NCBI RefSeq assembly: GCF_000226095.1
Contig: NC_016472.1
Coordinates: 7,316,001-7,380,000 of the forward strand
Reading direction: 5' to 3'
Origin: Thermothelomyces thermophilus ATCC 42464
Lineage: Eukaryota > Ascomycota > Sordariomycetes > Sordariales > Chaetomiaceae
Length of the DNA: 64,000 nt
Below the pieces are notes generated by a model. The model was not told the origin of the DNA and did no database searches. It was given only the letters and a program-made list of their open reading frames with translations. The position numbers and the translations under genes were made by a program. Below, piece after piece: positions 2 through 63,978 of this stretch. Position 1 is the stretch's first letter, and each line of letters starts with the position of its first letter.

Positions 2-3000
2 ACGTCCGCCGCTCAGAGCCCCGGTGTCCCAGCCGGAGTCTCGCCGGGGCCGTTTGGTGCCAAATTCAATCCCCGCGCATCGATCTCGGGATCATCACCA
101 CATGCGTGGTCTCCACAATTGCTTCTGCAACAAGGTCATCGCGGCGGTTCGCCTTCCCTTGCTAATCTCGGGGCGGTCATGTCGCCGGCGTCGCCCTTCT
201 CTCCCGACGGAATACCGGGTTCTGTGGGACATCAACGTCACCAGTCACTCCAGTTTTCTACGTTGCCGCATCAATTCCAGCCCCCAGTGAGGGCCTCGCC
301 TCGTCTTCAGGAGCTCCGCGAGGTGGACGAGGAAGCAGTGGCCGACGCTCCTCCCGCGACTTCTGAGCAGCAGCGCTTTGTCCGCCACAACGCCAGTGAC
401 AGCCTGCAAAGAGAAATTGACGAGGCGGAGTACCACTTGGAGGAACAGATGCGGTCACAGCTTGACAATGACCAAGATTACAGTCCGCACAACGACAAGG
501 ACAAGCCAGAGGCGGGTCCGAGCAGCTCGGCCCTTGGCCATGCGGGAGACCAGCTTATGCAGTTCGCACCTCAGTCTCATCGGTTTGCCAGTGACGCGGA
601 CGGCCTCGTTCTACATCATCCCCGGCCCCATAGCCGTGGACATTCGCTGTCCCAGAAGTACTTCACCGAGGACGATGTCTCCAAACAGGGAGCGTTCAGG
701 CCCACGCTGCAGCAGATCAATGCCCAGCCGGCCGAAGAGGACGAGATCGAGACGAATCCGAGCAACCTGGGGACGCCCGTGCAAGCATTGGAGTTCTCCA
801 AGCTCGTACATCAGCGCGGTTTCTCCACCGCCAGCAACCCGTGGACCGAGGAGCCTAGCAACCCTCCCAAGAGCAGCCATCAACCCCACCAGAGCCGTGG
901 CAGTGTTTCCTCCTTCTCAAAGCTCAATGTGGAGGCGCCCGAGTTCAAGTTCAACCCCACGGGTACTTTCAGTCCCACTAGTGCTTTCAACCCCACGACG
1001 AGCACCTTCAACCCGGGCGCGTTCAGTTTCACAAGCAACTCGTTCCAGCCCATGGCGTTCAACGCTGGCATGAACTCGGCCACGTTGAGCCAACCCCGTT
1101 TACCGACGACTGGCTCTTCCAAGATCAACGTCAATGCTCCTGTCTTCTCGCCGGGCCAGAGCGAGTTCAGCTTCTCGACCACGGGCCCCAAGTTCCGACC
1201 AGATGCCCCAGCTTTCACTCCCCATTCACTGTCTACGTCGCTCACGAGCCCCATCACGTCGGGGCCCGAGAGTGGTAGCAACCTGGGCGGCTCCGTATTT
1301 GGCACCATCGACCTCAAGGGTGCCGACCACGCCAAGCCCGGCAAGAGGTCCAAGGCCATCCCGATTGTTGCGCCAGACCGTCGGAAATCTCCTGCGGCCA
1401 GTGGCACGCAGTATGATGCCGACGATCGCCCGGTTGTCGATGAGTCCCGCATCAAGAGGGCTCGGGCAAATGCCGAGAATGGCGACGATGTACCGCTTTT
1501 CGCCGAGCGCGCTAAGGAGGACACGCCCGCCCCTGTGTCTCAGCCGGATACATCCGGTCAAGAGGATGGCGTGCCGGTGGAGGAGAAATCGTTTGATGAG
1601 TCTAATCTGGGCATGTCGTCAACCATGGTCTCCGAGACGACAGATACGAAGGCCACAGTTAGCCCGTCTGAACCCTCGCCGGAACAAGCCACGGTGAAGT
1701 GGGCACCCTTCGAGTTCAACAACAAGTCGGATGCGCAAGCCTTCAACGATGCGAGGCCGTTCGATCCTGAAGCGCTCAAGCCTGCTCATAAAAAGTCGTT
1801 GTCTGCAACCGCGAAGGAGTTCGTGCCGGGTGCGGCAGTATGGGAGGCGGCTGTTGAACAGGCTGAGGAGCCTGTTGTGGACCAGAAGTCCGTTCAGCCT
1901 GTTGCCGGAGATGCAGACACGGCAGCCGAGGACGATGCCGTCGCTATCTCCGCGAAGGCGCCCGAACGCTCGGAGCAAGAGGAAGCGGCACAACCTCCCG
2001 AAGAGCAAGCCGAAGAAGGAGAAGTTGCAGATGCTACCACTGCGCCCGCGGAGCCCGGTCCGCAAACGCTCTCCTCGGAAAAGGGGCTTTCCGCTTCACG
2101 ATATGCCCAGGCTTCGCCGCCTCCGCCGCCGCAACCCAAACGAACTGGCCTGGCCGCCTCCCGCTTCGCTGCCCCTCCTCCCTCACCACCCTCGGAGGAT
2201 GCGCCGGTTGCCGCCGACCACACCGTCTCACCTCTGTCTGCTGAGGAACAGCCTGCCATGCCAAATGGCGAGCAGGCAGCAGGCGAGCCGTCCATGGCTG
2301 ATATAGATGAAGTGATGCGTCTTATGAACGAGAACCCGGATATGGGCGTGAACAGGACGTACGATGATCATTCACCGTGGCATGAGCACAGTCCGTTGCC
2401 TCAGTCTCCCATTGCTCGTGCCGTGGAGTCGTCACCTTCTCGCCTGCCCCCGAGCTACTCTCGCAGCGACGCTCCGAGCCCGAGCCAGGCGGATGGTCTC
2501 CAATCAGCGGCTGTGGAGCTGGAAGATCCCTTTGTTGAACCCCCTCGCAGCGGCCAGTCCGTCGAGGGCGCTATTCACCGTCTCAATGGAAGCGAGAGCT
2601 TGCCTGCTAGTGACTGGGAAGGCGTCTTCGGTGAAGAGGAGCAGAACGAGCTCGAGTCACGGGTTGGCTTCTTCGACGGCCGTGTCAACCAGCTTGTCGG
2701 TGGCTTGCTTGACGCGCGCCTCGGCCCTCTTGAGCGGACTCTGGATAGTATCAACCGGGCTCTGTCGAGGCGGACTCGATCCAGCCGTCGCGAGGGAGGC
2801 AGCATTTCTGTCGACAACCGTGACAGCGACGCCGATGATGAGGATGATGAGGTGCCTGGTCCGCCGCGGTCCCTCAGTCCACGCCGCGACCGCAAGATGG
2901 AGCAAATTCGCGCCGCTGTTCTGGACGCATTTGCCGTGCAACGCCGAAACCAGTCAGCAGAGCTCCGGCCTTCTACCTCACAGGCATCGGATAACTCTTT

Positions 3001-5497
3001 TGTCCTGAAGGCACTGGAGGAGATGAGGGAGCAGATGAAGGAGGAGCTCGGCCGCTCAGTCCAGCCTGCAATCCGCAGCGAAGAAATCAGGAGCATCCTG
3101 GAGGATGTTGTGGAGCGCCGCATTCCGCCTCCACAGCCGGCCGCGGATAAGGATGAGCAACTCAACGAGCTTCAAGCCCGCGTTGCTGAGCTAGAACAAC
3201 AACTTGTTGCCGAACGAACCAAGGCCGAGGCCGAGGTATCGGCGAGGCGGGCCGCCGAGGACCGGGCCGCCGAGGCCAATCGTGAACTCCACTCTGCTGC
3301 TACCAGGATTGAGGTCGAGATGATGAACAAGAGCGCGTTGAACCGGCGGATTGCCGACCTCGAAGAGCGACTGCAGCATGCGGAGGGCCAGGCGGAAGAG
3401 GAAGTCAAGGGCCGAAGAGCAGCGGAGGATCGCCTCTCTGAAGTCCAACGCCTGCTTCGGATATCGTCCGAGGAAGAGACGCGGCTCCGGGAGCTTGTCG
3501 ACGAGAAGGACCAGAGGATCAAGTTAATCGAGGCCGTCAATAGCAAGAATGCGATGCGTCTCACCGTCTTGGAGGCAAGCCAGGCCAATGTCCACCAGGC
3601 CCAGAGCGAAGCCCAGAACCGGATCAACTCGCTTGAGGCTGACGCCCGCGAGGCACGCAAGGAAGCTCAGCACTGGCGGTCCGAGACTGATCGCATCGTC
3701 GCCATCATCCAAAGGCGTGACAAGGATCTTGCCCAGGCCCTCGACGAGAACAAGGCTATGCACAAGCTTATCGACACTCTGGGCACCCAGCTGCAGGAAA
3801 ACGAGCGCGTGCGTGACACCTGGCGTGCCAAGTTCATCGCGATGCAAGACGAAATGGCCCAGGCAACCAAAGCCATCACCGAGGAAAATGCTCGCCGGAT
3901 CAAGAAGGAGCAGGCGCTGCTCGCCAAGCAAGAGGTTCTCGAGGCCAGACTGCAGGCTGAGGCCAGGACCCGGGAGCGTATCGAGACGGAGCTCGAGAGG
4001 CTGGAGATGGGTGAGCGCCAAGGCATGAGGGCTGTCGCCGAGTGTAAGAGGCTTGAGGGCCTTCTGGCCGAGTTGCGCGCCGAGAACCACAAGCTCCATC
4101 AGAGCGCTCTCCGCTACCAGGCCGAGTTCCGAGAGGCCAGAGAATCGGGCGCGCGCGAGGTCCAACGTACGCGCGAGGCGATGCAGGCCGAAGTGGAGAA
4201 CGCGAATCACCAGGTCAACGTCGCTCGCGAGGAGCTCGAGGCCCAGGTGTCGCGGCTCCGGGCCGAGCTCGACCAAGTCAGGTTGGATGCGGATACGGCC
4301 AAGGCCCGCCACGATATGCTCCTCGAGGAAGCACAGAATTCGAAGCAGGCCGAGATAGAGGAGCTGGTGCGGAAGCACCAGAACGAGGTCGAGGACTTGC
4401 AGGCGCGCTACGAGCGTCAGCTCAGCAACACGACGGAGGATGCCCAGAGGGCCGAGCAGAACCTCCTGGAACGTCTCAGCATCTCGACGTCCAAGTCGGA
4501 GTACCTCCAGGACAAGGTGGCGCACCTGGAGGAGAAGCTGGAGATTGCCAAGGAGGCTGCCCGGGCGGCCGCTCAGGCCGCGAAGTCTGCTTCCGGCTCC
4601 GGAACTGCAGCCGCTCAAGCCGAGCCCGCCGCCTCATCGCGTCAGCTTGAACTGCCAGAAAAGATATCGCCGCAGGCCCTGCGCGAATCCATCATGGTAT
4701 TGCAGGAGCAGCTGCAGGAACGGGAGCAGCGGATCGAGGAGCTGGAGACCAAGCTCTCCAAGACTGACCCAGAGGCCGAGGTCAAGATTTCGAAGCGCGA
4801 CGACGAGATCATCTGGCTTCGCGAACTTCTCGCCGTGCGCCACTCGGATCTTCAAGACATCATCACTGCCCTAAGCCGTGATGACTACGACAAGAACGCC
4901 GTCAAGGACGCTGCCATCCGTCTCAAGGCGAACCTGCAGATGGAGGAGCAGGAGCGCGAGAGGGCGATGAACGGGGGCTCGGCCATCAATCTGCCTAACA
5001 TCGCGGCCACTATCCAGGCCGCAACCCCTCGAGTTGCCCAGGCAGTCGGCCCTCTCGCCGCAGCATGGGGCAACTGGCGGAAGGCGCGGGAGCTCGGCAG
5101 CGTCCTGTCGTCTCCCGCCCCGGCCAACGGAAAGGCCTCGACGCCCTCGCGGGCTAGCTCTGCCTCGGGTGGTCTCTTCGGTGGACTCATGACACCTCCG
5201 GCATCTCGCATGCGCACAACGCCCCCGAACCAGGCCAAGCAGCCGACCGCGTTCTCCAGCACGGGACGCCGGTTCACGGCGCAAGACCTCGCCAACAGGC
5301 CGAAGCCGCCGCGTTCCTCAGCCTCCCCTTCGCTCGCAGACGACGCGAAGGGTAAAGCGCCCGCGGCAGCCGCGCAAGAGACGCCTCAGCGGCGCCCGCT
5401 CGCCGAGCCTGTCACGCCGCCCATGATGAGCTCCAAGACGTATGATGATGATGCCCAAGCCGAGGACTTTGATGATGCCGGGTTCTTCGAGGATTAA
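2..5497 (+). CDS. Large coiled-coil protein with four PAM2-like motifs, 5'-truncated by the window edge
   Basis: The frame is open from base 2 to the TAA at 5495-5497, giving 1831 visible residues without an intron. The true start lies upstream; the first in-frame ATG (179) sits inside clearly continuing coding sequence. The N-terminal half is disordered (Pro/Ser/Gln-rich). It carries four segments resembling PAM2, the peptide that binds the MLLE domain of poly(A)-binding protein: 917-958 (core LNVEAPEFKFNP), 1115-1156 (INVNAPVFSP), 1184-1222 (FRPDAPAFTP, weak) and 1790-1831 (LSATAKEFVPG, good). A duplicated short motif (LSASRYA / LAASRFA) lies at about 2086-2170. Heptad-rich coiled coil runs from about 3149 to 4590, with a shorter one at about 4650-4770. 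After it comes a conserved-looking WGNW segment (5066-5077) and an acidic C-terminus ending in GFFED. I do not recognise a named ascomycete family. The architecture resembles basidiomycete Upa2, which is an inference and not a homology claim. Confidence 0.9.
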   Translation, partial: TSAAQSPGVPAGVSPGPFGAKFNPRASISGSSPHAWSPQLLLQQGHRGGSPSLANLGAVMSPASPFSPDGIPGSVGHQRHQSLQFSTLPHQFQPPVRASPRLQELREVDEEAVADAPPATSEQQRFVRHNASDSLQREIDEAEYHLEEQMRSQLDNDQDYSPHNDKDKPEAGPSSSALGHAGDQLMQFAPQSHRFASDADGLVLHHPRPHSRGHSLSQKYFTEDDVSKQGAFRPTLQQINAQPAEEDEIETNPSNLGTPVQALEFSKLVHQRGFSTASNPWTEEPSNPPKSSHQPHQSRGSVSSFSKLNVEAPEFKFNPTGTFSPTSAFNPTTSTFNPGAFSFTSNSFQPMAFNAGMNSATLSQPRLPTTGSSKINVNAPVFSPGQSEFSFSTTGPKFRPDAPAFTPHSLSTSLTSPITSGPESGSNLGGSVFGTIDLKGADHAKPGKRSKAIPIVAPDRRKSPAASGTQYDADDRPVVDESRIKRARANAENGDDVPLFAERAKEDTPAPVSQPDTSGQEDGVPVEEKSFDESNLGMSSTMVSETTDTKATVSPSEPSPEQATVKWAPFEFNNKSDAQAFNDARPFDPEALKPAHKKSLSATAKEFVPGAAVWEAAVEQAEEPVVDQKSVQPVAGDADTAAEDDAVAISAKAPERSEQEEAAQPPEEQAEEGEVADATTAPAEPGPQTLSSEKGLSASRYAQASPPPPPQPKRTGLAASRFAAPPPSPPSEDAPVAADHTVSPLSAEEQPAMPNGEQAAGEPSMADIDEVMRLMNENPDMGVNRTYDDHSPWHEHSPLPQSPIARAVESSPSRLPPSYSRSDAPSPSQADGLQSAAVELEDPFVEPPRSGQSVEGAIHRLNGSESLPASDWEGVFGEEEQNELESRVGFFDGRVNQLVGGLLDARLGPLERTLDSINRALSRRTRSSRREGGSISVDNRDSDADDEDDEVPGPPRSLSPRRDRKMEQIRAAVLDAFAVQRRNQSAELRPSTSQASDNSFVLKALEEMREQMKEELGRSVQPAIRSEEIRSILEDVVERRIPPPQPAADKDEQLNELQARVAELEQQLVAERTKAEAEVSARRAAEDRAAEANRELHSAATRIEVEMMNKSALNRRIADLEERLQHAEGQAEEEVKGRRAAEDRLSEVQRLLRISSEEETRLRELVDEKDQRIKLIEAVNSKNAMRLTVLEASQANVHQAQSEAQNRINSLEADAREARKEAQHWRSETDRIVAIIQRRDKDLAQALDENKAMHKLIDTLGTQLQENERVRDTWRAKFIAMQDEMAQATKAITEENARRIKKEQALLAKQEVLEARLQAEARTRERIETELERLEMGERQGMRAVAECKRLEGLLAELRAENHKLHQSALRYQAEFREARESGAREVQRTREAMQAEVENANHQVNVAREELEAQVSRLRAELDQVRLDADTAKARHDMLLEEAQNSKQAEIEELVRKHQNEVEDLQARYERQLSNTTEDAQRAEQNLLERLSISTSKSEYLQDKVAHLEEKLEIAKEAARAAAQAAKSASGSGTAAAQAEPAASSRQLELPEKISPQALRESIMVLQEQLQEREQRIEELETKLSKTDPEAEVKISKRDDEIIWLRELLAVRHSDLQDIITALSRDDYDKNAVKDAAIRLKANLQMEEQERERAMNGGSAINLPNIAATIQAATPRVAQAVGPLAAAWGNWRKARELGSVLSSPAPANGKASTPSRASSASGGLFGGLMTPPASRMRTTPPNQAKQPTAFSSTGRRFTAQDLANRPKPPRSSASPSLADDAKGKAPAAAAQETPQRRPLAEPVTPPMMSSKTYDDDAQAEDFDDAGFFED

Positions 5498-48298: not shown

Positions 48299-49176
48299 CT
48301 ATAAACTCATGGTCAACCACTCCCACTCCTGTGGCGCAGGCCGCTGGCTTCCTGGCCCGGCCAATGGCCTCTGCATGCCGCTACTGCCGCCGCTACTGCC
48401 AAAGCCACCCAAACTAAAGCTACTAGCACTGGGCTGCAACGAAGCCAGCCCCGCGCTCGAACCCAGGCTCGGCTTCGACAGGCCCGCCGACGACGTTGCC
48501 GCGCCCTCGTTGGATCCCGTAGAGCTCTCCGGGCTGTCGATGTCCATGCTGTTCAGCGACGGCTGCTCTGCCGCTGTGACGCTCTTGCTGTGGCGGCGTT
48601 GGCGTTTCGACGAAGACAACGAGGAAGAGGAGATGGCTGTGGTGCGCGGTACGGAGGCGGCGCCCGGGCCGGGAAGGTTCTTCGCCGGGGCCGCAGCGAT
48701 CGGAACGACACCCTTGCCGCCAACGGCAACATTGGTAGAGGAGATGGCATTGCCGTGGTAGCCGGTTGGCGTGTTTCCATTCCCGGTCGACGCGGCGCCG
48801 TTCGCGGAACTTTCGCTGTCGTTGGCGTTACCGGTCCGGTTCGAGGCTGCCGGCGGGGTGCTCGCCTGAGCTGGGGGAGGGTTGGCGCTGGAGGAGACGG
48901 ATAAAGTCGAGCCCCTCTTGCTTATCCCCCCAGAGGAGCCGCCGTTCTTCCTCGACCGGGTGCCGCCGCCGCCGACAGGAAGACTCGAACCGGAGCCGCG
49001 GTTCCGCTTCTTGATGACGTCCGTCTTCAAGCTCAGCGGGCGAACCACACCATGCAGCTTGAGGAAAAGACCGCAAGCATTGCAGAGGGGTTGGCCTTCG
49101 GGATTGCGGCGCCAGAGCGGCGTTGTCTGGGTGAAGCAGTTGGTACATGTTGTGGGGGTGTTAGTGTTGGAGGAAC

Positions 49177-49210
<34 letters not shown>

Positions 49211-51739
49211 GGTGGTGGTGGTAGTGGTGGTGGTGGTGGTGGTGGTGGCGTTGGAGTTGGAGTTCGTGCTGCTGCTGTTGCTCTCGTTCTGACTGCTTCC
49301 CGCGGCGGCTTGGAGGTTGGTTGTGGAACCCTGCCTCGAAGCTGGAGGAGGCGAGGACGGGCGGCTTGTAGAGACAGAGGAGAAGGCCGAGTTCTGGTTG
49401 GCCTCGGCTGGCGGCGAGTTCGGGGTCGACTGTGCCAACCTGTCGAACGGATTGCCCTTGCTTGTCAACCTCGGGGTCGATGCTGTCCGCGGTACCTTCC
49501 CGACGCGACCGTTCGTTGTACGGAAAGGCTGCGACTGCGACCTGTTCAGATTTCCGCCCTCCCAATCCCCCTTCGAGTCGACGTAGTCGGTCGTGGTGCC
49601 GCCTATTGTCACCTGTTTCCGAGTAGGCCCGCCAGGATACCTAGCCGCCTGCATGCTAAAGTTGCCCGGGAGAGATGGATCCCACTGCAGTGACGAACAG
49701 TCAAACGCACCGTCATCCATACTGCTTCCTTGGGGCGAGAGGTCCTGCGAGATTGGCAGATTGCGGTCGGCAAAGGCGCCGCCGTCCTCGTCGTCGGAAT
49801 CCGCTCCGAAGGAGAACATGCTCTCTTGGCCCAGCCCGACGGCGGGGGAACGAGCAGGGAGGTCTTGCTGGAACACCCGGGTCGGGTCGACATGGCTGAA
49901 AGAGCTCGGCGCCGTAAAAGCCGAGGACGTCTCGGGGCCGGTCGATGCGGCCGGGAACATCAGGTTTCCTCCATTCGCGCCGTAGGGGAACTGTTGGCCT
50001 AGCGGGTTGGCCATGGCGGCAGGGCCATTCCTATACGGATGTTGGCGCATCTGCCGCACATCCATGGAGCCAAAGTAGAAGCCATCGGCCTCGCCCAGGG
50101 GATGCGGTGTGGAAACGGCAGACTGATAGGCCGAGCCGGGAGGGGAATAGAAGTCGGCCCCTAGGGAGCCCGAAGGCATCGAGGAGGCATTATAGAGGCT
50201 GGCGAACGGGTCATTCGCCGCCATTGGCGAGGTGGCCGGCGAGAAGGAGAAGTTCTGCTGGAAGGGCCCGGCAGAGCTTATGCTCAGGTCGTTCCCCAAG
50301 CGGAAGGTGTCGAGCGGGAAGGGAACTCCCATCTGATTGGGCGGTTGGCTGGCGGCGGCGGGATGTTGTAAGTGGTCGAGTGAGTACTCCTGGAGGTCAG
50401 CGTCGGCATCGAGTCCACTTGTCGACAGGCCGCTGTTGACGGCGGGTACGTGGGGGGAGAAATTGGCCGGTCGTTTGCGGGTCTAGAGAGAGAGGCAATG
50501 GATCATCAGACCGCCATCACAAAAAAAGCAGGAAGGCATCTCGTGTCATCGAAAATACAAGACGGCTTCAAGGGGCGCGATGGATTTGACTCCAAAGACG
50601 ACCTGTACGCAGCAGCAAAAGGCGAGAGAACTTACACGTTGGCCGGTCTCGTCAATGCTAGTTTTGCGCGGGTGCCGAGGCAGATAGCCAAATTCGTCCT
50701 GAGGCCTCTGGTGGGCGGCAACGGGCACCGACTGGGGTGCAAGATGCTGAGACGACGACGAAGACGACGACGACGACGGCTCCTTGCGGTTCTTGATGGG
50801 AATGGCCGTCGCCGTGGTGTGAGCCGACCTCTCCTCCGCCTGGCGCATCGTTTCTGGGGTCGGGGTCAAGGCGAGGCCGGCCGGGGTTCCGACGTTATCG
50901 TTGTGAATGAAATCGTCCAGGTTCATCGGGTCCAACTGTGGCGGGGCATGTTCCGACGACTTGCGCAATTGCGCAATCCCACTGGGGGTATTTGCTGATG
51001 AGCTGGATGCACGACTTGTCCTTTGTTTGCCCACAGAAGTCAGCAAGCATTCTTCTTTTTCTACCCGGCTCTCTCCCAAGCTTTCTTTCTTTTCTTTTCT
51101 TTTCTTTCTTTCTTTCTTTCTCCCAGTCCTCCAACCGGCGAAGTACCACACAATCCGCGGGACACCAAGACGGGAAAGAAAGAAAGAAAGAAAGAAAAAA
51201 ACCTACTTTGTCGTGTTGGCTGCCTTCGTCTTCTGCAACTTGAGATGCATCATCCGCCACGTCAGGTTTTCCATGCGCTCCTGGGCGGGCAGGAGCTGTT
51301 TTGTCTTTGCGTAAAACTTCCAGATCTGGGTGGCCAGCGGGTCTTCCCTCTGCATCTCCTCCAGGCTCTGGGCCTCTCGCCGGGCACTCTGCTGGAAGGG
51401 CGGGAAGGCGGAGGCGCGCAGCAGGTCAAGGTGGGCGGCACCACCACCCTGAGCCAGGCCTAGGTTCAGGCGGCCATCGAGCAGGCCGGGACGCAATCCG
51501 CCGCCGCCCGCCGCTGCCGTCGTGGTCCCCGACGTCGCCGTCCTCGAGGCCGCCGTCGACGTTGATGTCGGCGGCACCGGCTTGGTACCGGAGGCAGATT
51601 CGAGTCGGTCGGTTTTCCGCGCCCCGGTCGCGGCGTCTGCTGGCCTTCGCGGAAAGCGAAAGTCGTGCTCTGTCATGGTGGGATGCATTGGGGCCAGCGG
51701 ACCAGGCGCCGCAGAGGAATCCGTCGTGGTCGCTGCCAT
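48299..51739 (-). CDS. nit-2: AreA/NIT-2 GATA transcription factor, nitrogen metabolite activator
   Basis: On the minus strand the exons are 51739-51207, 51020-50636 and 50482-48299, giving 1033 aa, very near the length of Neurospora NIT-2. Intron 1 (186 bp, GTAGGT..AAAG) restores [12 protein letters not shown]; intron 2 (153 bp, GTAAGT..CTAG) joins in phase 0 to [10 protein letters not shown]. The N-terminal region has the AreA-family block [18 protein letters not shown] followed by [10 protein letters not shown] second block ([17 protein letters not shown]) begins exon 2. The single GATA finger is C752-X2-C755-X17-C773-X2-C776, the fungal 17-residue loop class, followed by the basic arm. 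A Thr/Asn tract lies just before the finger. The C-terminus EWEWLTMSL is the segment through which NmrA/NMR restrains the factor. It activates genes for secondary nitrogen sources when ammonium and glutamine are scarce. The start is the ATG at 51739; an upstream GTG frame extension is ignored. Confidence 0.97.
49178..49250. repeat. Trinucleotide tracts encoding Thr/Asn runs next to the AreA finger
   Basis: On the plus strand GTT repeats (49178-49210) pass into GGT repeats (49211-49250). On the coding strand they encode about 12 Thr followed by 11 Asn, about 15-20 residues before the zinc finger. Length polymorphism between strains is likely. Confidence 0.9.
51081..51200. repeat. Inverted CTTT/GAAA repeats in areA intron 1
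   Basis: A CTTT-type tract (51081-51120) and a GAAA-type tract (51174-51200) are complementary and about 53 bases apart. Both lie inside areA intron 1 (51021-51206). In the transcript the U-rich arm starts immediately after the 5' splice site. Confidence 0.85.
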
Positions 51740-62009: not shown

Positions 62010-63978
62010 TTAGAGCATGGTGCCAAAGTCGTCGTTGTCGTCGTCGTCGAAGGGGATCGGTTTGCGCGGGGTCCCTTCGTCGGTCGCCGGCTTGCGGTGG
62101 CGGAAGGTAAACCCGACAAACAGGCTCTTCCTCATCTCGTCCTCGCGGTCCGCCATGGTCTCGAGCGCCTGCTGCTTCTCATGCACTTCCTTGTACTTGG
62201 CCATGTCGGCCTCGTTGCTGAAGTCGTCAAAGTAGCCCGCGTCCGTCTCCGAGTCCAATTCGGGCACGAACGGCGGCTTGGTCTCGCGCAGCACGGCCCA
62301 GTCCACCTCGGCAAAGTACTGGTGCGCATAGATGTCCTTGATGTTGGAAAACCTCCTGGACCTCGAGTTGATGCAGCTGCAATTTCGTCGTCAAGTCAGC
62401 CCCTCTCGTCTCTCTCGTCTCTCTCGTCTGCGCCCCACCCGGCAGTTACCTCGGCCGCGGACTTACGTCGTGATAAAGTTCCATGTCCGGTTGCTCAGGA
62501 AGTAGTTCGGGTCTTCCCACACCGGCCGCTTTAGGACCTCCTTCCAATGATTCAGGTTCCGCCACGTCTCGTCGGCGGTCGCTCCCGCGAAGGGAGGGAA
62601 GCCCGTGAGGGCCTCAAAGAGCATGCATCCCAGACTCCAGTAGTCGACCGTGAAGTCGTACTGCTCGCCCCTCAGCACCTCGGGCGCCATGTAGTCCGGC
62701 GAGCCGACGATCGACTTGGCGTAGTTCACGTCCCGCTCCCTCATGGTGCGGTAGCCCTCCCGACGCTCGGCAACCGTACGCTGGTCCATCGGTTTGCCAA
62801 ACGGGACCGGCGCCTCGGACGCTTTTTCCAGGCGGATCCTCATCGACTCGATCTTGGCGGGAGCCAAGAACCCGGCCGCCAGGCCAAAATCGGTGAGCTT
62901 GACGTGGCCGGTCGAGTCGACCAGAAAGTTCTCGGGCTTGAGGTCGCGGTGGATATAGCCCAGCTGGTGCAGGGCGTCGACGGCGCAGAACATCTCGGCG
63001 ATGTAGAAGCGCGCGTGCCGGTTCGACAGCACGCCCGTGTTGTTGAGGAGAGTGCGGAAGTCGCCGCCGGGTACGTATTCCATGGCAAGATAGATATTCT
63101 TGTCGTCCTGGAACGAGTACAGCAGCCGGACGAGCCAGTCACTCTTGGCCGTCGTGAGAATGTCGCGCTCGGTCAGGACGTGCCGGACCTCGTCCAGCTT
63201 GAACAGCAGCTTCTTGCTCATGACCTTCAGAGCGCACACCTCCTTGGTATCCTTCTTTTGCGCGAGGAAGACCTGGCCATACCCTCCCTGGCCGACCTGC
63301 GTCAGGATCTGGAAGTCGGCGTGCCGCAGCCTCACCCGCCGCTTGCGGAGATTGGCGCGTTCTCGGCCCGTGTACTTTGCCCACATCTGATTATAAGTTT
63401 CCTCGTCTGTCGCCGGGGGTGGGGGGAATTCTTCTCTGAACGCATTGAGCCGGTTCTGCCTCTGACTGACATAGGTCAGGAGATCAAAATAGTAGTCAAG
63501 GAAATCTGACGAAAACGAAGTCAGCAGCAATCCTGGGAATGGGAGCGGCCCGAACTCCCGCGGACGTGTGCTTACAGAGCTGGGTGACGTTGACCAGGCG
63601 CTTGACGGCGGGCTTCTGGAGGAGCTCGCGCTCCTCGGGAGTCAGGCCCCTGGTAGTGTTGAATCGCCGTACCGTCGGCGACGGCCGTTCTCTCGGCTGA
63701 TACAATTCTTGGCGCGAAAGGGCGGCATGGCTTGGTTGGTATGTCGGCTCGGTGAAGGGGTCTCTCGGGAGGTTTGGGGGGGTGTTTTCCTGTCCTTGTT
63801 TTCTCAGAGGACTGCCCGTTCGGGGAGCGCCCTTGCGGATGATGCTGTCGTCGACACTCGGTGAACCCTCTTCCAGAATCTGTAGGTTACTCTTGCCGGG
63901 AGACAGCGGCGCGACCACGCTCTGGGGACGGGTGAGCTTCACCGGGGTGTCGAACGCGCTCGGTGGGTTGATCTTCAT
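62010..63978 (-). CDS. dbf-2: NDR-family serine/threonine kinase, Dbf2/Sid2 type
   Basis: On the minus strand the exons are 63978-63576, 63505-62467 and 62376-62010, giving 602 aa from the first visible ATG. The frame remains open to base 64000, so the true start may lie beyond the window. Introns are 70 bp (phase 1, restoring LYFLDYYFD) and 90 bp (phase 2, restoring ITTCINSRSRRF), each with a CTGAC branch site. An N-terminal Mob1-binding helix region precedes the kinase domain (from about residue 199). Present are the glycine loop GQGGYG, catalytic HRDLKPEN, DFG, the 60-residue insertion before the activation loop that marks NDR kinases, and GSPDYMAPE. The C-terminal hydrophobic motif is FVGFTF with its regulatory Thr. 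Dbf2/Sid2 with Mob1 ends the mitotic exit/septation initiation pathway. The insertion sequence favours Dbf2/Sid2 over Cot1/Orb6. Confidence 0.94.

Follow-up and report, generated by a model that had tools for sequence, protein, structure and literature searches.

The Ustilago mRNP scaffold Upa2 is a protein of about 2100 residues in which PAM2 motifs, a coiled coil and a C-terminal tryptophan-containing motif follow one another in that order. Upa2 dimerises and carries four PAM2 motifs together with a C-terminal GWW that is crucial for endosomal binding, and its interaction with the MLLE domain of Pab1 is lost when the four PAM2 motifs are mutated (PMC9249222). Stein et al. (2020) cite a phylogenetic analysis in which ascomycetes lack both Upa2 and Rrm4, and suppose that the complex is made up somewhat differently there (PMC7550108). 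In Sordaria, Pab1 and GUL1 nevertheless travel jointly, most probably on Rab5 endosomes, with co-localisation of the two in about 91% of the processively moving units (PMC7550108), and in Neurospora GUL-1 co-immunoprecipitates PAB (PMC10512220).

Here we report a candidate protein with several PAM2 motifs and a long coiled coil, encoded in a stretch of 64,000 nucleotides (hereafter the window; C1:7316001-7380000) of the genome of Thermothelomyces thermophilus, a member of the Sordariales; this genome was searched as 38,744,216 bases on 7 contigs. Like Upa2, the protein has several PAM2 motifs, a coiled-coil region and a Trp-containing C-terminal region. Three PAM2 motifs are recognised, and a further segment (motif 3) is PAM2-like only. 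Unlike Upa2, the protein has an internal WGNW in place of GWW, and it is encoded in a genome with no detected Rrm4-type MLLE protein. With Paip2, ataxin-2, eRF3, Pan3 and GW182 it shares the type of PAM2 peptide, motif 4 aligning weakly with that of Paip2, but it differs from these usual PAM2 proteins in that a single chain carries more than one such motif as well as a long coiled coil. It also differs from the FYVE-RING proteins Upa1 and Pib1 in having neither a FYVE nor a RING match, and resembles the Spitzenkörper adaptor SPZ-1, known here by description only, as an ascomycete coiled-coil scaffold or adaptor. The likeness to Upa2 is one of architecture, and the protein may be a relative or a look-alike. 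With GWW absent, one of the four segments failing the PAM2 model and the comparison confined to architecture, we do not class the protein among the orthologues of Upa2.

Gene and protein architecture

The gene is spliced, and the first base of the window already lies inside it. Its second coding part (2..5497, plus strand) is open from the first bases of the window until a TAA stop codon and encodes 1831 residues. An upstream exon frame was read from the DNA before the window (L002 5416-6709, in the coordinates of that locus), followed by an intron of 65 bases (L002 6710-6774, GTAAGC...CTGCAG) with GT...AG ends. Joining the exons gives a candidate frame of 2338 residues (~254 kDa) with a provisional N-terminus: no in-frame ATG is found near the one upstream donor candidate examined (300 bases before the donor, three frames), and the exon's first in-frame ATG is residue 265, from which a protein of 2074 residues would start.

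Order-promoting residues make up 15% of the N-terminal tail and 31% of a segment at about residues 335-448 (KKKIPWKGKSVIVLLPK...), the highest share in the protein. This segment, which runs from L002:6418-6709 into exon 2 at L002:6775 (KKKIPWKGKSVIVLLPKDEERG...FDLYEPDEDAD...AWKRYVDELNEAKLRALGV), matched nothing in Pfam or NCBIfam and nothing of significance in the PDB, and may be the most useful part of the protein for locating orthologues. All four PAM2 or PAM2-like segments lie in a part of about 1060 residues with much Pro, Ser and charge, and after this part come a coiled coil of about 480 residues, another helical stretch that is shorter, and a tail rich in Pro that contains WGNW.

Apart from PAM2, no domain scored above its Pfam cut-off in the protein (window part, with the N-terminal domain and the C-terminal tail scanned alone), and the N-terminal domain on its own matched no Pfam family. 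Seven Pfam families matched the C-terminal tail, all under their cut-offs, and weak RUFY4 and Golgin_A5 matches are read as coiled-coil noise; NCBIfam returned one sub-threshold SMC match across the coil. When compared with the PDB by sequence, the C-terminus had no match and the N-terminal exon matched a GH31 enzyme alone (E 0.26), which is read as chance.

A paralogue search of the same genome returned only the protein itself. Two scans of the genome_contigs collection yielded 18 and 139 pattern-matching stretches, and three scans of viral_contigs yielded 0, 8 and 6, with 0 confirmed relatives in either; this null result is silent on fungi because the collections are bacterial, archaeal and viral. 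Among the open-licence papers listed, none was seen to name an ascomycete multi-PAM2 scaffold, which is not proof that the protein is undescribed.

PAM2 motifs and their comparison with chance

Four segments were scored against the published PAM2 consensus xxLNxxAxEFxP, as matches out of six positions (PMC9249222), and with the Pfam PAM2 model. Motif 1 (920..952, KLNVEAPEFKF) matches 5/6 of the consensus and reaches 20.6 bits when scanned alone, motif 2 (1121..1153, KINVNAPVFSP) matches 4/6 and reaches 16.7 bits, and motif 4 (1796..1828, SLSATAKEFVP) matches 5/6 and reaches 17.9 bits, all on the plus strand. Motif 3 (1190..1222, plus strand, KFRPDAPAFTP) matches 3/6, counted by eye and under the threshold of 4, and gives no Pfam PAM2 match. 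As single segments, therefore, one of the four lies above the Pfam cut-off (motif 1), two lie below it (motifs 2 and 4) and one is not matched. Scanned as a whole, the 1831-residue window part scores 23.3 bits (E 4.6e-5) with Pfam PAM2 (PF07145), whose cut-off is 20, and three of its stretches are matched when E up to 10 is allowed. Three further pieces of the same protein had no PAM2 match when scanned alone.

The earlier note had placed four PAM2-like motifs here, with coordinates that prove right for the cores at 920-952, 1121-1153, 1190-1222 and 1796-1828. Its count holds for motifs 1, 2 and 4, which Pfam PAM2 recognises, and has to be relaxed for motif 3; the pattern it gave (hydrophobic-N-x-x-A-x-x-F-x-P) is followed in full by motif 2 alone; the final P is replaced by F in motif 1, and N is replaced by R in motif 3 and by S in motif 4.

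Motifs 1 and 2 are separated by an FxP-rich low-complexity linker (956..1090, plus strand) that itself yields weak PAM2-like windows, and motif 4 lies about 190 residues past motif 3, outside the FxP-rich part. Among PDB sequences, only motif 4 aligned with a PAM2 peptide, weakly, namely that of Paip2 in 1jgn (E 0.67). Matches of the PAM2 region to occludin (E 3.9), of motif 1 to ColH (E 1) and of motifs 2-3 to the Pol II CTD (E 5.6) are read as chance. A search of the protein for PAM2L-type EFxxP or EFxP found only the EFVP within motif 4.

Consensus scores were compared with 3000 shuffles of the whole protein and 3000 shuffles in 60-residue blocks. The two windows with at least 5/6 (motifs 1 and 4) were equalled in 0/3000 and 0/3000 shuffles, respectively, and these two motifs are clearly above chance. 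The looser test, three windows with at least 4/6, is weak because 70/3000 and 36/3000 shuffles reach the real count. A relaxed five-position pattern finds ten windows with at least 4/5, a number reached in 0/3000 of either shuffle, and two windows at 5/5, reached in 0/3000 and 3/3000; it cannot vouch for motif 3 because several of its windows fall in the FxP-rich linker. Motifs 1-3 have a common repeat (K/R-hydrophobic-xxx-A-P-x-F), three copies of which occurred in 0/20,000 block shuffles, with a pattern that was picked after the motifs had been seen. Motif 3 is weak alone, and its support comes from this repeat, shared with motifs 1 and 2 in the form K-hydrophobic-xxx-A-P-x-F.

A background set was drawn from the window and from 20 C1 stretches, each of 10 kb; in six frames it comprises 799 open frames no shorter than 100 residues (137,698 residues, mean ~172), mostly short and many of them non-coding. 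The multi-PAM2 frame is alone among the 799 in having at least two windows with at least 4/6. A single 5/6 window occurs in one other frame, and two others each contain one 5/5 match to the relaxed pattern. In a six-frame PAM2 search of the genome, four places were found, all under the cut-off, namely motif 1 at 18.0 bits and three single ones elsewhere. Uniqueness as a multi-PAM2 protein is not supported by this search, because it missed the gene's other motifs.

The other frame with a 5/6 PAM2-like window lies at 62463-63641 of the window (minus strand); its match, LNAFREEFPP, is likely chance. By eye, this is followed by what is presumably a Dbf2/Sid2-like protein kinase domain.

Coiled coil and WGNW region

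The main coiled-coil region (3152..4594, plus strand) spans about 481 residues, with ends placed by eye from the loss of Pro and Gly. A second probable helical stretch (4670..4885, plus strand), which includes EIIWLRELLAVRHSDLQDII, also has ends placed by eye, and its heptad signal is weak. Periodicity at 3.5 residues was measured in 84-residue windows with 500 shuffles each. The signal is strong where windows begin at residues 1513-1723 (0-5/500 shuffles) and at 1975 (0/500), weaker in those starting at 1765-1849 (19-29/500), weak in those starting at 1933, 2017 and 2101, and absent in the window starting at 1891 (292/500). Residues 1891-2038 contain zero Pro and zero Gly. The window that begins at residue 631, which is not part of the coil, scores too (5/500).

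The WGNW segment (5066..5077, plus strand) lies in a moderately amphipathic stretch, 139 residues ahead of the C-terminus, whose best hydrophobic moment falls between the 95th and 99th percentiles of the protein itself; GWW occurs nowhere in the protein. A coiled coil of about 480 residues and a C-terminal WGNW, both named in the earlier note, can be retained with some correction: periodicity extends over much of residues 1513-2059 but is uneven and lost in the window at 1891, and WGNW is present but internal, with no GWW beside it.

Putative Pab1 scaffolding and its alternatives

Pab1 of the same genome has an MLLE domain with KITGMLLE intact. All matches of a genome MLLE search (E up to 10, one first-look candidate scored) lie in this one gene, and within the same first-look limits no second MLLE protein of the Rrm4 type was detected.

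Overall, we favour, with modest confidence, an mRNP scaffold that binds Pab1 multivalently and functions in the manner of Ustilago Upa2. This reading is preferred because of the PAM2 matches of motifs 1, 2 and 4, the weak alignment of motif 4 with the Paip2 peptide, the chance tests, the coil, the MLLE domain of Pab1 and the lack of any Pfam domain above its cut-off that would suggest another function. Counting against it are motif 3, which fails the PAM2 model, motifs 2 and 4, which alone are below the cut-off, motif 1, which is below the cut-off in the genome search, the heptad gap in the coil, and the single PAM2-like matches in other genes of the genome. An Upa2-like mRNP scaffold, as the earlier note proposed, is partly supported: a multi-PAM2 coiled-coil protein, an intact Pab1 MLLE domain and the absence of other Pfam domains above their cut-offs agree with it, and the missing GWW, the unrecognised motif 3 and the lack of a detected Rrm4-type MLLE protein speak against a strict match.

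Such a scaffold would be cytoplasmic and would self-associate through its C-terminal coiled coil, probably as a dimer. The three to four PAM2 peptides in its disordered N-terminal half may hold several Pab1 molecules by their MLLE domains, and poly(A) mRNPs could in this way be gathered into a multivalent assembly; a dimer would double the number of Pab1 molecules gathered. Binding to Pab1 is what we infer from the PAM2 sequences, and it is more speculative still that the protein might ride on endosomes like Upa2, with the WGNW region as a membrane or adaptor contact.

A narrower form of this reading, overlapping with it in probability, is that of a true distant Upa2 orthologue that shuttles on endosomes and that previous surveys overlooked, given how rapidly disordered and coiled-coil sequences diverge. 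An orthologue would be expected to show what is seen here, namely several PAM2 motifs, a long coiled coil and Trp residues towards the C-terminal end, but the protein has no GWW, a second MLLE protein was not detected in the genome, and ascomycetes are reported to lack both Upa2 and Rrm4 (PMC7550108); we regard orthology as unlikely. Somewhat less likely again, the protein could be one already studied or acting elsewhere, either a Pezizomycotina coiled-coil scaffold such as SPZ-1 (NCU02049) or a tip, septal or vesicle tether, in which the PAM2 motifs would serve secondarily to capture mRNA locally. SPZ-1 is described as a coiled-coil protein of multicellular Ascomycota that is not in budding and fission yeasts (PMC7275032, PMC5309816), and the C-terminal half of our protein has features general enough to be compatible with it; against this, words beginning with 'pab' or 'mrna' occur 0 times in the main text of PMC7275032. 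JNS-1, at about 100 kDa (PMC7275032), is too small.

On a par with the SPZ-1 type, and likewise improbable in our view, the motifs could have arisen incidentally in a disordered region rich in FxP and AP, without Pab1 binding. Such an origin would account for the ten relaxed-pattern windows (at least 4/5), several of which fall within the FxP-rich linker, for the failure of Pfam PAM2 to recognise motif 3, and for the 70 and 36 of 3000 shuffles that reach three windows with at least 4/6. It sits poorly with the two 5/6 windows, which 0/6000 shuffles reach, with a window part that passes the Pfam PAM2 cut-off, and with the position of motif 4, some 190 residues beyond motif 3 and away from the FxP-rich part.

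With the multivalent scaffold as the preferred reading, this multi-PAM2 coiled-coil protein becomes a concrete candidate for the missing ascomycete scaffold and fits the gap around Pab1 and GUL1. The fullest version of that role is doubtful at present: the protein would be what ascomycetes have in the place of Upa2, scaffolding Pab1 multivalently for endosomal mRNA transport without Rrm4, anchored by WGNW and not GWW, and with an uncharacterised N-terminal domain (IPWKGKSVIVLLP...).

At G000:C1:687685 (L004), QQLNPGAPAFTP starts an open frame of 287 residues and scores 18.3 bits for PAM2 in the genome search and 15 bits in a Pfam scan of the frame. At G000:C4:2380427 (L006, minus strand), LNPNAGEFNP lies near the C-terminus of a 1997-residue frame, which we take to resemble the Mlp1/Tpr nucleoporin, and scores 15.9 bits in the genome search. 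At G000:C1:3691845 (L007, minus strand), LNVSAPEFV scores 14.7 bits in that search; its frame also matches CCCH zinc-finger and HBS1_N models below threshold. Pfam scans of the L006 and L007 frames returned no PAM2 at E up to 0.1. A FYVE and RING gene at G000:C1:1554159 (L014, plus strand) resembles Pib1 or the C-terminal part of Upa1, with no PAM2 in the two frames scanned. Three genes with an RNB domain are present, one of which may be the Ssd1/GUL1 homologue. Within the window, a frame at 48299-50482 (minus strand) has what resembles, by eye, a GATA-type zinc finger, with a long Thr/Asn run just ahead of it.
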